Below are positions 21,615 to 25,852 of a DNA stretch of 64,000 bases, piece by piece. Every line of letters begins with the position of its first letter. Position 1 is the first letter of the stretch. A program made the translations under genes and the position numbers. The stretch spans positions 930,001-994,000 of the forward strand of contig NZ_CP035807.1 in NCBI RefSeq assembly GCF_008329945.1, written 5' to 3'. Below the pieces are notes generated by a model. That model saw only the letters and a program-made list of their open reading frames with translations, did not search any database and had not been told where the DNA came from. Source of the DNA: Thiospirochaeta perfilievii. GTDB taxonomy: Bacteria; Spirochaetota; Spirochaetia; DSM-2461.

Positions 21615-23222
21615 TTAGTTATTATTACTAAAAATTAAATTCCCACCTTCAACAGAGATAGAAAAGTCTAATGAACTCTTTATAACATCCATATCATGTT
21701 CACCTAAAGACTCTCTAGGAAGAAACAAATATGGATTTATAGATGTTTTAATTCTATAACCTTTTAAGAGTTTTTTAGGGTAACCATTTGGATAGTAGTT
21801 TATTTCATAGGATAGGTGTGGACCAGTAGATCTTCCTGTTGATCCAACATCTCCTATATGGAAACCCTTTGTTATTTTAGATCCTACTGTAACTAAAACC
21901 TTATCCAAGTGGGCATAGGTTGAGAAGAGATTATCCCGATGTTTTACAACAATATAGTTCCCATACTCTTCTGGATCATAGTCAATAACTACCACTTCCC
22001 CTGCTCCTGTTGAGTATATAGGTTCACCTTTTTTAAAAGCCATATCTACAGCTGGGTGGAATATAAATTCACTTCCAAAAGGATCCATAACAAGCCCCCA
22101 CGGAAGAGTAATTCTAAATGATTTTAAAGGGGATCCAAGGGGATAGTCATCCCTAAAATCTGATATAGATCTTATTATATCAGTAAACTGATAAGCCTTT
22201 GTATAGGATGTTAAAAGTGCTCCACCATCCTTACTCTCATCAAGAAAATCTTCAAATAGTGTTTTATTCAAAACTACTTCACCAGAATAGACTTTAACTG
22301 GATATATCCCAACTGTTAATAATATTAGTGATGTAATTATAACACTTTTATATCTATTTAAACCTTTAGGATCCATCTTTACTCCTAATAATAAATTTTT
22401 TACTCTCTTCTTTATTGTTGACTCTTTACAAATACCAGCACATATAACACTGTTTTTACCAGTTTTGTTACTTGATATATTATTTAAAAGGGTTGTTGTA
22501 TAATCTAAATAATTAATGTTTTTTACACTAATTTCATCACATAACAACTCTCTTAAAATTTCTCCATAATAATTTAAAAAGTAATAATATGGATTAAACC
22601 AAAATATTTTTTTAAGAAGTACCTCAAAATTCAACCAAATTAAATGACAATTTCGTATGTGATTCAACTCATGTTCAATGATAATATCTTCATCTGTTTT
22701 TATTAATCCAATTGGCATAAATATTACTGGCTTAATAATACCATGGGAAAATGGATGTTTTACTCTACTTGAGAACACAATTTTAATTCCATCAATATAT
22801 TTTCTATTTTGGGTTCCTTTTTTTAATTTATGCACATTAAAGACTTCTCTAATAATAGTAAAAAATAGAGATATAACTGTAATTAAAAGTATTATCTCTT
22901 TAAAAACAAAATAATTTTTACTCTTTTTTTCTAGTTTTGATATAGAGTTATCACTTTCAATTTTTTTATCTTGATAGATTTGAGGGATATTTGAGTCTAT
23001 CTCCAGTCTTTTATTTACCAAAACTGAGGCAAGGGTATTCTCATCAACAATACTACCTACAGGTTTTAATAATATTAAAGAAGGGATTATAAGTGTTAAA
23101 ATAAGTATTAATCTATGAATTACCCACTGATAGTTATGATTATTATATCTCTTTCTAAGAGAGCAGTATGATAAAAATAGTGGTAATAATAATATTTGAC
23201 TTATTATATATATTTTAATCAT
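21615..23222 (-). CDS. BlaR1/MecR1-like M56 metallopeptidase sensor with C-terminal M23-like domain
   Basis: 535 residues with BlaR1 topology: TM1 5-20, TM2 35-53, TM3 107-126, a cytoplasmic zinc protease loop with HELNH (184-188) and a downstream Glu near 230, TM4 291-313, then an outside C-terminal domain. In BlaR1 that outside part is a penicillin-binding domain; here it is a LytM/M23 fold (about 380-505) with HPAVD (389-393), YAHLD (438) and PHLSYE (468-473). The normal HLH is HLS, so one of three zinc ligands (position 471) is replaced by Ser; catalysis is doubtful and a peptidoglycan-binding sensor is likelier. Overlaps the upstream BlaI-type gene by 4 bases. Confidence 0.85.
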   Translation of the reverse strand: MIKIYIISQILLLPLFLSYCSLRKRYNNHNYQWVIHRLILILTLIIPSLILLKPVGSIVDENTLASVLVNKRLEIDSNIPQIYQDKKIESDNSISKLEKKSKNYFVFKEIILLITVISLFFTIIREVFNVHKLKKGTQNRKYIDGIKIVFSSRVKHPFSHGIIKPVIFMPIGLIKTDEDIIIEHELNHIRNCHLIWLNFEVLLKKIFWFNPYYYFLNYYGEILRELLCDEISVKNINYLDYTTTLLNNISSNKTGKNSVICAGICKESTIKKRVKNLLLGVKMDPKGLNRYKSVIITSLILLTVGIYPVKVYSGEVVLNKTLFEDFLDESKDGGALLTSYTKAYQFTDIIRSISDFRDDYPLGSPLKSFRITLPWGLVMDPFGSEFIFHPAVDMAFKKGEPIYSTGAGEVVVIDYDPEEYGNYIVVKHRDNLFSTYAHLDKVLVTVGSKITKGFHIGDVGSTGRSTGPHLSYEINYYPNGYPKKLLKGYRIKTSINPYLFLPRESLGEHDMDVIKSSLDFSISVEGGNLIFSNNN

Positions 23223-23617
23223 TTATCTTTCTCCTTTTGTAGCATTTCAATAAGTGTAGATAACTCATCCTTTGTAAGATCAGTATCCTTTACAAAGGCT
23301 GCAGCCATCTCTAATTTATTCCCTGAAAATAGATCCCCTAGAAGTTTCTTAAATTTACTGTGGGAGACTTCATCCTTATTTATTGTGGGAAAATAACTGT
23401 AAGATCGTCCATTTTTATGATGATTTACAAGGTTTTTCTCCTCCATTATCTGTAACTTTTTAAGAATAGTTGTATAACCAGGTTCTTTATCATCTAACCA
23501 GTTATCGATTATTCCTTGAACTTTTAATGGTTCATTTTTTCTCCATAAAACATTTAAAATCTTTAATTCTAATTCTGGAACATTAATTTTTTTCATTTTT
23601 ATAAAATCCTTTACCAT
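23219..23617 (-). CDS. BlaI/MecI-family repressor
   Basis: 132 residues. Winged-helix N-terminus (ELEILNVLW-type start: VPELELKILNVLWRKNEPLK; GYTTILKKLQIMEEKNLVNH) and a dimerisation/cleavage C-terminus with LLGDLFSGNKLEMAAAFV. In the known system the sensor protease triggers cleavage of the repressor and lifts repression of the operon. Here repressor and sensor form one operon with its own operator inside the promoter. No beta-lactamase or PBP gene lies nearby, so the regulon beyond the operon is unknown. Confidence 0.9.
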   Translation of the reverse strand: MVKDFIKMKKINVPELELKILNVLWRKNEPLKVQGIIDNWLDDKEPGYTTILKKLQIMEEKNLVNHHKNGRSYSYFPTINKDEVSHSKFKKLLGDLFSGNKLEMAAAFVKDTDLTKDELSTLIEMLQKEKDK

Positions 23618-23626
23618 GGTAATTGG

Positions 23627-23655
23627 ATCTTATTACGACAAGCGTCGTATGTCAA
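23627..23655 (-). promoter_or_regulatory. Promoter with BlaI-type operator in the spacer
   Basis: Minus strand: TTGACA (23650-23655), 17-base spacer, TAAGAT (23627-23632). The spacer holds TACGACGCTTGTCGTA (23634-23649), a perfect 6+6 inverted repeat with 4-base centre, filling almost the whole spacer. It keeps the TAC...GTA outer bases of BlaI/MecI sites. Strong candidate for autoregulation. Confidence 0.7.
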
Positions 23656-23656
23656 T

Positions 23657-23686
23657 AAAAAAAGAGACTATATATTTTACAGTCCC
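23657..23686 (-). terminator. Intrinsic terminator after the antiporter gene
   Basis: Minus strand: GGGACT ... AGTCTC stem (one G-U pair) with an 11-base AT loop, followed by seven T. It lies 20 bases past the antiporter stop and shields the BlaI promoter. Confidence 0.65.
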
Positions 23687-23705
23687 TTTATTTAAAGCAT
23701 ATATA

Positions 23706-25397
23706 TTATAGTGTTTCCATATCTTCTGCTTTTTTCTTTAATTCTACTAGCCTTCTAGATATAAATTGTTGCATTCTTCTGTTCTCTATCATACCTTCTA
23801 CTCTACCATCCTTATCTACAACAGGAATTGAAGGAACATGACTCTTATCAAAAAGACTATAGATATCAGAAGCTTGGCTATCTAGAGTTGTAGTATAGAG
23901 AATACTGTCCATAATATCGTGGGCTAATAAAAAGTCAGATAACTCAGAAGCGATAAAGGTATCCTTTAAATTTTCTATGGATAAAATACCAACTAGTTTA
24001 TTATCACTATTTACAACAGGATAGTAGAGGTTATCCCTTGAAGCAAAGATACTTAAGATGTTATTTAAATTCTCATTCTCTTTAATTAAAGGTATATTTT
24101 TATCAGCAAGATCTCTACCTCGGCTCTGTCTAATAAGGTCCTGGGCAGTAATATTAAGTCCAACTTCCCCACTTCTACTAACAGCAAACTTAACTGCTGT
24201 TGGACCTATTAGTTGTACAACAAATGTTGTGGCTGTAATAATTAAAACAATTGTCTCTCCAATTACACCATCAAAGGTATTTCCAGCTACAATTGATAAA
24301 CCAATAGCAACACCAGCCTGACTAAAAAGACAGAATGGCAGGTACTTTCTAACTGATGTTGGAGCTTTGGAAATAATTGCTCCTAAAATACTCCCAGCAG
24401 CCTTACCACCCATTCTACCAAATAGATATACTAGAGCCATAACAACTGTAACCTTGGTTAAACCACCAACATTAAGGGTTGCTCCTACCATTACAAAAAA
24501 CAGTATATATACTGGAGGTGTAAACTTTTCTACTAAATGAAATGTCTCTTCACTTCTTCTAGGTGCAAAGTTTGATATAAAAAATCCCATTGCCATTGTT
24601 GATAAAATAACATCAACACCTAATACCTGGGCTAGACCTATTAAAAGAAGTATTGCACCTATGGAGAAGGCTAAAATCTTATCTTCATCTACAAAATTCT
24701 TAATAATCCAGAATAGTAGAGCTCCAATTCCCACACCAAGGAAAACTGAAAGGCCAATCTCCCATATTAATGCTAATATACTTAGACCAAGGTTTGCTCC
24801 AGCTTGACCACTTAAAATACCAACAACACTAGATGCTATTGCAAATAGTAATAGAGATACTGCATCATCCATTGCTACAATTCCTAATATCATTGTTGTT
24901 AATGGGCCCCTAGTTTTATTTTCCCATAAAACATCTGTTGTTGCTGCAGGAGCTGTGGCAGATGAGATTGCACCTAATAATAGACCAAGGGATATTGCAA
25001 TTTTTATATCATGGAAAAAGAGGTATGAAGTAATTGAGATTAGGATAAATACAATAAAAAAGGCTCCTAAAGACTCCATTAGTAGTATGGTTAAAAACTG
25101 TTTACCATATTTTTTAATTGTTTTAAGTTTAAGTTCTCCACCTATCATAAAACCGATTAACCCTAGGGCAAAAGTACTAAAGGGTTGCAAATTAGTAAGT
25201 GTTTTAGAGTTTATTAGATTAAAGCCTGTTTGGCCTAAAACTAAACCAAGTCCTATATAACCAACTACTTGGGGTATTTTCCACTTTTGAAATAGTCGGC
25301 CAACTAAAGTTCCACCAAAAAGGATAACACCTAATAAAAGAATCATATTAAAGGAACTAAAATCTACATTTTCTGTAAAAATATCAAAAAATTTCAT
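23706..25397 (-). CDS. CPA2-family cation/proton antiporter with C-terminal CBS pair
   Basis: 563 residues. About 12 membrane segments to residue 390 (GVILFGGTLVGRLFQKW; QVVGYIGLGLVLGQTGF; SSATAPAATTDVLWENKT; MVGATLNVGGLTKV), the Kef/NhaS-like fold, with two CBS repeats from about 435 to 550 (LYYPVVNSDNKLVGILSIEN; HVPSIPVVDKDGRVEGMIEN) that usually bind adenine nucleotides. Likely Na+ or K+ / H+ exchange gated by nucleotide. Coupled to an EIIA protein gene directly upstream (one-base overlap), suggesting EIIA-dependent control. Confidence 0.88.
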   Translation of the reverse strand: MKFFDIFTENVDFSSFNMILLLGVILFGGTLVGRLFQKWKIPQVVGYIGLGLVLGQTGFNLINSKTLTNLQPFSTFALGLIGFMIGGELKLKTIKKYGKQFLTILLMESLGAFFIVFILISITSYLFFHDIKIAISLGLLLGAISSATAPAATTDVLWENKTRGPLTTMILGIVAMDDAVSLLLFAIASSVVGILSGQAGANLGLSILALIWEIGLSVFLGVGIGALLFWIIKNFVDEDKILAFSIGAILLLIGLAQVLGVDVILSTMAMGFFISNFAPRRSEETFHLVEKFTPPVYILFFVMVGATLNVGGLTKVTVVMALVYLFGRMGGKAAGSILGAIISKAPTSVRKYLPFCLFSQAGVAIGLSIVAGNTFDGVIGETIVLIITATTFVVQLIGPTAVKFAVSRSGEVGLNITAQDLIRQSRGRDLADKNIPLIKENENLNNILSIFASRDNLYYPVVNSDNKLVGILSIENLKDTFIASELSDFLLAHDIMDSILYTTTLDSQASDIYSLFDKSHVPSIPVVDKDGRVEGMIENRRMQQFISRRLVELKKKAEDMETL

Positions 25398-25852
25398 TAA
25401 AAATCCTCTACTTTTAAAACTTCAGTTATCTCACTACTATTTTTACATTCAAGAAGTCTTTTCTGGAATGCTCTATCCTTAATTTTTTTAACTAATAATG
25501 ATAATATTCTTAAATACTCTTTGTGTTGGTCAGCCCCTACTAATATCATAACTATTATTTTAACAATCTCACCATCTATAGACTCATAATCACTAATACC
25601 ACTTGGGCTTATTGCAATTGTAACAATAGGTTCTTTAATCCCTTCAAATCTAACATGGGGGATACCTATACCCTGGCCAATTCCGGTACTCATAATCTGT
25701 TCCCTATAAAAAATCTCTTTTTTGAGATTCTCCACATCGCTACACTGACTAGAATTTTCTATTACTTCAATAATCTCCAATAGTGATTCAGTCTTAGTTT
25801 TACTATTAAGAATTAGACAGTTTGAATCCTTTATTAACTTATTTATATTCAT
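25397..25852 (-). CDS. PTS EIIA domain protein (nitrogen/fructose type)
   Basis: 151 residues, a single EIIA fold. The phospho-acceptor is H66 in GIGQGIGIPHVRFEG; the following SISIAI-like strand (VTIAISPSGISDY) and MILVGADQHKEYLRILSLL are typical. No sugar-specific EIIB/EIIC is near, so it is a regulatory EIIA. Its stop overlaps the antiporter start, so the two are made together, presumably to control transport by phosphorylation state. Twin logic: the permease at 57.4 kb has an EIIA domain fused on. Confidence 0.87.
   Translation of the reverse strand: MNINKLIKDSNCLILNSKTKTESLLEIIEVIENSSQCSDVENLKKEIFYREQIMSTGIGQGIGIPHVRFEGIKEPIVTIAISPSGISDYESIDGEIVKIIVMILVGADQHKEYLRILSLLVKKIKDRAFQKRLLECKNSSEITEVLKVEDF

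Follow-up and report, generated by a model that had tools for sequence, protein, structure and literature searches.

A BlaR1/BlaI-type operon of Thiospirochaeta perfilievii whose membrane protease carries an M23 domain with one zinc-ligand residue replaced

In a window of 64,000 nucleotides from Thiospirochaeta perfilievii (contig NZ_CP035807.1, positions 930,001 to 994,000 of the forward strand), we identified an operon in which a BlaI-type repressor is paired with a membrane protein, here called P0001, that joins an M56 protease of the BlaR1 kind to a C-terminal M23 (LytM-type) domain from which one zinc-ligand residue has been lost, and in which the promoter encloses an operator-like inverted repeat. 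This anatomy is read directly from the DNA. Our preferred reading, to which we give an even chance, is that P0001 and its repressor form a BlaR1/BlaI-type switch in which the periplasmic M23 fold, probably zinc-free and non-cutting, serves as a cell-wall sensor.

The sensor gene and its parts are as follows:

21615..23222, minus strand: P0001, the M56-M23 protein, a single open reading frame of 535 residues
22392..23207, minus strand: M56 domain, residues 6-277 (Pfam Peptidase_M56, E 7.3e-26)
22659..22673, minus strand: HELNH, residues 184-188, with H, E and H invariant across five M56 proteins
22536..22550, minus strand: ELLCD (ExxxD), residues 225-229, with E and D invariant across five M56 proteins
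22905..23063, minus strand: putative outer loop, residues 54-106, placed by hydropathy and comparison with EL1 of BlaR1
21795..22061, minus strand: M23 domain, residues 388-476 (Pfam Peptidase_M23, E 2.4e-25; AlphaFold2; Foldseek)
21810..21812, minus strand: Ser471 (TCC), replacing the zinc-ligand His of HxH that is present in 92 of 93 M23 segments

Both domains score above the curated Pfam cut-offs. A hydropathy script found four hydrophobic stretches (residues 1-23, 31-60, 102-131 and 291-318), in agreement with the four transmembrane segments of the original prediction, and placed the predicted HELNH protease loop, together with ELLCD, between the third and fourth of them. The resulting segment order, as judged by hydropathy order only, is that of BlaR1, i.e., protease loop inside and sensor outside; BlaR1 itself has both its N and C termini outside (PMC9834060). 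The loop between stretches 2 and 3 would occupy the place of EL1, which in BlaR1 comprises residues 56-96 (PMC9834060). As a lone query the M56 part of P0001 matched no solved structure, whereas a profile of five M56 proteins with P0001 leading matched full-length BlaR1 (8exs, E 8.6e-26); AlphaFold2, working from a thin alignment, modelled this part poorly. D210 of BlaR1 is described as near strictly conserved (PMC9834060), and its place is occupied by His in P0001, in L038 (the related protein described below) and in L080 and L081 of the Flavobacteriaceae. Pfam found no penicillin-binding domain in P0001, the C-terminal sensor being an M23 domain instead. PADLOC gave no defence-system match, and Rfam gave no RNA-element match within the window.

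The M23 fold with HPAVD, YAHLD and an HLS at residue 471, as originally predicted, is borne out by the Pfam match and by the motifs themselves, which lie at residues 389-393 (HPAVD), 436-440 (YAHLD) and 469-471 (H469-L470-S471), so that H389, D393, H438 and H469, four of the five M23 site residues, are retained. The second His of HxH is a zinc ligand in LytM-type M23 domains (PMC9662197, section 8), and the claim that one zinc ligand has been lost is therefore correct for P0001; the first His of HxH is the catalytic one and, with another His some 30 residues nearer the N terminus, is believed to activate the water (PMC9662197). Since His codons (CAY) and the TCC at position 471 are two base changes apart, one sequencing error does not explain the replacement. 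Using one regular expression over the DNA examined, which strongly degenerate domains escape, we found His at the second HxH place in 92 of 93 distinct M23 segments, the sole exception being the Ser of P0001. In the 80 loci kept from a scan of viral contigs, a pattern open to either His or Ser at this place matched 79 times, always with His, and the four that were fetched of the six other M23 places in the same genome all read HLH. AlphaFold2 modelled the domain with blocks at pLDDT 92-98, and a Foldseek search with this model returned LytM domains, with DipM first, then ShyA and EnpA, and with LytM, lysostaphin and EnvC among the lower-ranked matches. As for what such a replacement does, a single His-to-Ser change at another ligand abolishes zinc in SpoIIQ of C. 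difficile, and Ser is natural at that ligand in SpoIIQ of B. subtilis (PMC4982068); degenerate LytM folds are described as acting by binding, mostly through protein-protein contacts (PMC9662197). The M23 domain of P0001 is probably without zinc. In a tree of M23 domains it falls outside a 23-row clade (support 97/98) that holds the nearest M23 relative in its own genome, although it sits on long branches and its place there is ambiguous.

The repressor gene and the control region lie immediately upstream of the sensor gene:

23219..23596, minus strand: BlaI-type repressor gene (Penicillinase_R, E 8.3e-24), likely start Met8, with the reading frame open from 23617
23627..23655, minus strand: promoter TTGACA-17-TAAGAT enclosing TACGACGCTTGTCGTA, matching 10 of 12 consensus positions
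23634..23649, no strand assigned: operator-like perfect inverted repeat TACGACGCTTGTCGTA, with the same layout at the L038 locus
23661..23689, minus strand: terminator-like hairpin at the end of the upstream antiporter transcript, with 12 pairs and a T-run (0.0 expected in shuffles)

The predicted pairing with a BlaI-type repressor thus stands, the stop codon of blaI overlapping the ATG of the sensor gene by 4 bases. We chose Met8 as the start of blaI by the AAAGGA ahead of its ATG. MecI is among the solved relatives of this repressor, and in the alignment with MecI a Phe is kept at the P1′ place, where BlaI is cut before Phe102. The hairpin ahead of the operon, and the SelO gene that converges on it beyond the sensor gene, indicate that the operon seems limited to these two genes. 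Just upstream, at 23706-25852 on the minus strand and beside a PTS IIA-like gene, is a cation/proton antiporter gene with two CBS domains, apparently on a separate transcript.

The operator-like site is a 16-bp perfect 6-4-6 inverted repeat between the -35 and -10 elements. The mec operator of S. aureus is TACTACATATGTAGTA, from which the frame of the pattern TACNACNNNNGTNGTA was drawn, and this pattern occurs once in the window against 0.03 expected. BlaI and MecI operators carry TACA/TGTA and those of CopY carry RNYKACANNTGTMRNY (PMC7253601); the site in the P0001 operon departs from TACANNTGTA, and the same paper cautions that bare palindromes are not to be trusted as operators. A search of the whole genome found no further exact copy of TACGACGCTTGTCGTA. 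Since the sole exact operator sits at the operon's own promoter, the operon probably controls itself. Relaxed operator searches matched 43 places, fewer than the 76 of the reversed-pattern control, and as a set these matches are therefore meaningless. The relaxed form TACTACNNNNGTAGTA has two intergenic sites, neither of which we take as a target. One of them, TACTACTTAAGTAGTA (L087 2208-2223, G000:C1:3420207), has a PEGA-domain gene on one side and signal-peptidase genes on the other and was considered as a possible second repressor site; it is unsupported, and it is missing before the homologous signal-peptidase gene (48% identity) of the congener G001. Exact and relaxed operator searches of the genome thus established no target beyond the operon itself. 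No beta-lactamase or PBP gene adjoins the operon, and the genome's one match to the class A beta-lactamase model PF13354 scores 27.4 bits and looks, on inspection of its sequence, like a D-Ala-D-Ala carboxypeptidase.

The nearest relative of the P0001 system combines the same arrangement with another sensor. L038, from a genome of another genus of the same family (G020), is the sister of P0001 in the M56 tree (support 98/92), its BlaI aligns with that of the P0001 operon over almost the whole length, and its blaI promoter, TTGACA-TACGAAAGATTTCGTAA, has the same layout. The pattern TACGAMNNNNKTCGTA matches only at the operon's own promoter both in the P0001 genome and in G020. Across eight genomes this pattern has 0-3 matches and its reversed-pattern controls likewise 0-3, so that chance alone would supply one match per genome, and the information lies in where that match falls. 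At the G020 locus (L197 4210-9448, G020:C20) the BlaI gene is followed by the gene for an M56 protein fused to a solute-binding protein, and then by two ABC permease genes; the fused domain fits this operon content, and the M56 protein may be both the binding protein of the transporter and its regulator.

Our class survey detected PF05569 above its cut-off in 12 of 394 genomes. Four of the proteins (L039-L042) were set aside as being, by eye, other membrane proteases with HExxH, leaving eight, and a phylum draw with hits in 4 of 392 genomes at E 1e-10, two of the four new, brought the total to 10 M56 proteins. A BlaI-type gene adjoins nine of these; at L178 none was seen in the stretch examined, part of which is masked. 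The outer part is an M23 domain in three of the ten (P0001, L037 and L033), DJ-1/PfpI in L035, a solute-binding protein in L038 and a region with weak TPR matches in L032, and those of L034, L036, L177 and L178 gave no Pfam match. Among these loci, the M56 protein with the DJ-1/PfpI outer domain (L035 1438-3048, G104) has an adjoining blaI gene, L177 (G442) has almost no outer domain and a BlaI gene next door, L033 (G167) has a fully degenerate M23 domain and again a BlaI gene next door, and the gene of L037 overlaps an alpha/beta-hydrolase gene that comes after it. A check suggested with the original prediction was whether HLS is conserved among M56-M23 proteins, and it is not: L037 keeps the full M23 site (HLHFE), and L033 has lost all motifs, passing the Pfam M23 cut-off narrowly (29.1 against 28.7 bits) and aligning to M23 with an hhalign probability of 76.9%, while a probable remnant in G001 reads HLN.

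In the M56 tree the three M56-M23 proteins occupy three places. AU tests rejected P0001, L037 and L033 as one clade (p 0.0009), as well as the pairs P0001 with L037 (p 0.007), P0001 with L033 (p 0.00002) and L037 with L033 (p 0.024), these groupings having been set by domain content after the tree was seen, and with L037 and P0001 on long branches. Since the M56 domains of the three do not form one clade, M23 was probably joined to M56, by fusion or swap, more than once. L037, with its intact HLH, is by the same test not an orthologue of P0001 (p = 0.007), so that it is not the counter-evidence that an orthologue with intact HLH and muralytic activity would have been. Beyond the phylum, a two-row M56 alignment against genome contigs gave four loci, none M56-M23 by eye; no plasmid record had one place covering 80% of P0001; a first viral scan gave no M56-M23 protein, and later ones recovered M23 domains, no M56 of the Flavobacteriaceae type, and M56 at four loci where inspection by eye showed no M23.

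PF05569 found no M56 protein in the congeners G001 and G002 (81% and 71% complete). The sole TACGAMNNNNKTCGTA match of G001 is intergenic and lies about 90 bases ahead of DNA encoding an M23 remnant of 67 residues, with 48% identity to residues 437-502 of P0001 (E 1e-13) and with no visible start codon. P0001 is the best match of this remnant against 115 M23-like open reading frames, and the match spans the C-terminal extension of P0001, whereas the other M23 proteins of the genus align over 38 residues only; L105, L130 and L120, from viral contigs, also align over 62-67 residues, more weakly. The codon positions match P0001 at 35, 45 and 28 of 66 (first, second and third), a pattern of past selection on the protein. 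The locus (L194 1501-1810, G001:C120) carries the operator-like site and the M23 remnant without blaI or M56, and a frame that resembled an M56 start proved to be another frame of the same remnant DNA. This locus is probably the wreck of a P0001-type M23 domain, although it could be an effect of draft assembly, and the remnant together with the missing M56 in both congeners suggests that an M56-M23 system was probably once present in the genus and was lost at least once. The remnant has Gln for the His of YAHLD, and the ligand place has changed there too, with HLN for the HLS of P0001, a change for which decay could be responsible.

The P0001 genome has three FlaA-family matches, against none in 14 control genomes, which fits a spirochaete, FlaA being typical of that group. 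Taking these observations together with the work on BlaR1, where the antibiotic takes the place of the outer loop in the groove of the sensor, the sensor shifts toward the membrane and cleavage of BlaI by the protease follows (PMC9834060), we propose the following. In a two-membrane cell of the spirochaete kind the M23 domain of P0001 would be periplasmic and adjacent to the peptidoglycan, and its groove may bind a ligand derived from the cell wall, i.e., a peptidoglycan stem, a cross-bridge, a released muropeptide or a nascent strand. Binding would drive sensor and outer loop against the membrane, in the manner of BlaR1, and the activated M56 domain would cleave BlaI, in which the P1′ Phe is kept, derepressing the P0001/blaI operon. 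With no exact operator except its own, the operon would show its output mainly as a changed level of sensor and repressor themselves, and weaker operator sites may carry further output. A second input is possible at the repressor, as a peptidoglycan dipeptide binds BlaI/MecI directly (PMC3305447). We count the zinc loss in SpoIIQ (PMC4982068) in favor of a zinc-free sensor, and likewise L033, which is without motifs and still matches M23, and the altered ligand place of the probable G001 remnant. On the other side we count L037, whose intact M23 site means that cutting may matter in some of these proteins, the His at the D210 place, though it is common to L038, L080 and L081, and the lack of a target beyond the operon together with the apparent loss of the system in G001.

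The dead M23 domain might instead read a partner protein (an amidase, a divisome or an envelope protein), as in EnvC, NlpD and DipM, with M56 and BlaI working as proposed. That degenerate LytM folds act mostly through protein-protein contacts (PMC9662197), and that DipM and the EnvC-AmiB complex are among the Foldseek matches, agrees with this explanation, but the operon holds no partner gene and four of five site residues are kept, for which a surface that only docks proteins would have no use; we regard it as unlikely, if still worth serious attention. The M23 domain could also be, or recently have been, a working hydrolase, an effector under its own control whose dose is all that M56 and BlaI set. 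H438 and H469 are kept, the site of L037 is intact and the operon has no visible output other than the protein itself, yet P0001 is without one zinc ligand, SpoIIQ lost its zinc through a change of this kind, and L033 has no site at all, which makes this explanation rather improbable.

A relic, i.e., a horizontally gained regulator that is losing its function and whose missing ligand is decay, would be in keeping with the patchy spread of the system, the wreck in G001 and the failure to find M56 in two congeners; it is hard to reconcile with an intact frame of 535 codons, a strong promoter, a perfect repeat and an intact BlaI, and the codon positions of the G001 remnant show past selection on the protein, so that we give it little credence. 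Lower still we place a beta-lactam response system that senses the effect of the drug on the wall: the ancestry of BlaI and M56 suggests it, and beta-lactams raise wall fragments while a peptidoglycan dipeptide binds BlaI (PMC3305447), but P0001 has no penicillin-binding domain, the genome has no second exact operator, and the sole PF13354 match reads as a carboxypeptidase. The original prediction was of a sensor of peptidoglycan state rather than of antibiotics. That P0001 is a sensor but no receptor for beta-lactams has good support in the missing penicillin-binding domain, the missing ligand, the motif-less L033 and the solute-binding protein in the related system; that the signal is peptidoglycan is suggested by the fold.

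Antibiotics are what BlaR1 is known to sense, and should its M56 module often be fused to other outer domains, resistance sensing would be one application of a broader signalling architecture. We suggest, tentatively and with somewhat less than even confidence, that the BlaR1-type protease is a general chassis that takes on different outer sensors and retains its repressor and operator, and that here a zinc-free LytM groove reports the state of the peptidoglycan across the membrane by having the repressor cut, in a one-step wall-sensing circuit that regulates itself and is independent of beta-lactams. If the chassis idea is true, the signal of each M56 protein could be guessed from the domain fused to it, and a dead LytM domain on an M56 protease would be a direct reader of wall state. 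Such a reader would matter where the molecule that signals envelope stress is missing, as it is for many responses and, according to PMC3305447 (section 14), still for B. subtilis.

The M56-M23 architecture is already in print, without a function. Section 10 of PMC9662197 names M56 among other catalytic domains found with M23, together less than 1% of hits and with no function shown; these InterPro proteins resemble P0001 in having both domains in one protein, and that section merely lists them, without the state of the site, repressor, operator or function. No study of an M56-M23 protein was found in open-licence PMC, as judged by titles and the starts of abstracts. Compared with BlaR1/MecR1 and BlaI/MecI, the P0001 operon shares the M56 domain with HExxH and ExxxD, the four hydrophobic stretches, the BlaI-type repressor, the putative operator inside the promoter and the outer C-terminal sensor, and it differs in that this sensor is an M23 fold, that no beta-lactamase or PBP gene is adjacent and that His stands at the D210 place. 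The G020 system (L038/L197) is closer, with the nearest M56, a BlaI similar along its length and the same promoter-operator layout, but it differs in the solute-binding protein domain that closes its outer part and in the two ABC permease genes that follow. Like the degenerate LytM proteins EnvC, NlpD, DipM and SpoIIQ of B. subtilis, P0001 has an M23 fold with a damaged site of the kind thought to serve binding, whereas those proteins have neither a protease nor a repressor coupled to them, and SpoIIQ lost a different ligand (motif 1). With active M23 peptidases, finally, P0001 shares the H(x)nD motif, the catalytic His and the first His of HxH, and it departs from them in carrying Ser471 as the second.
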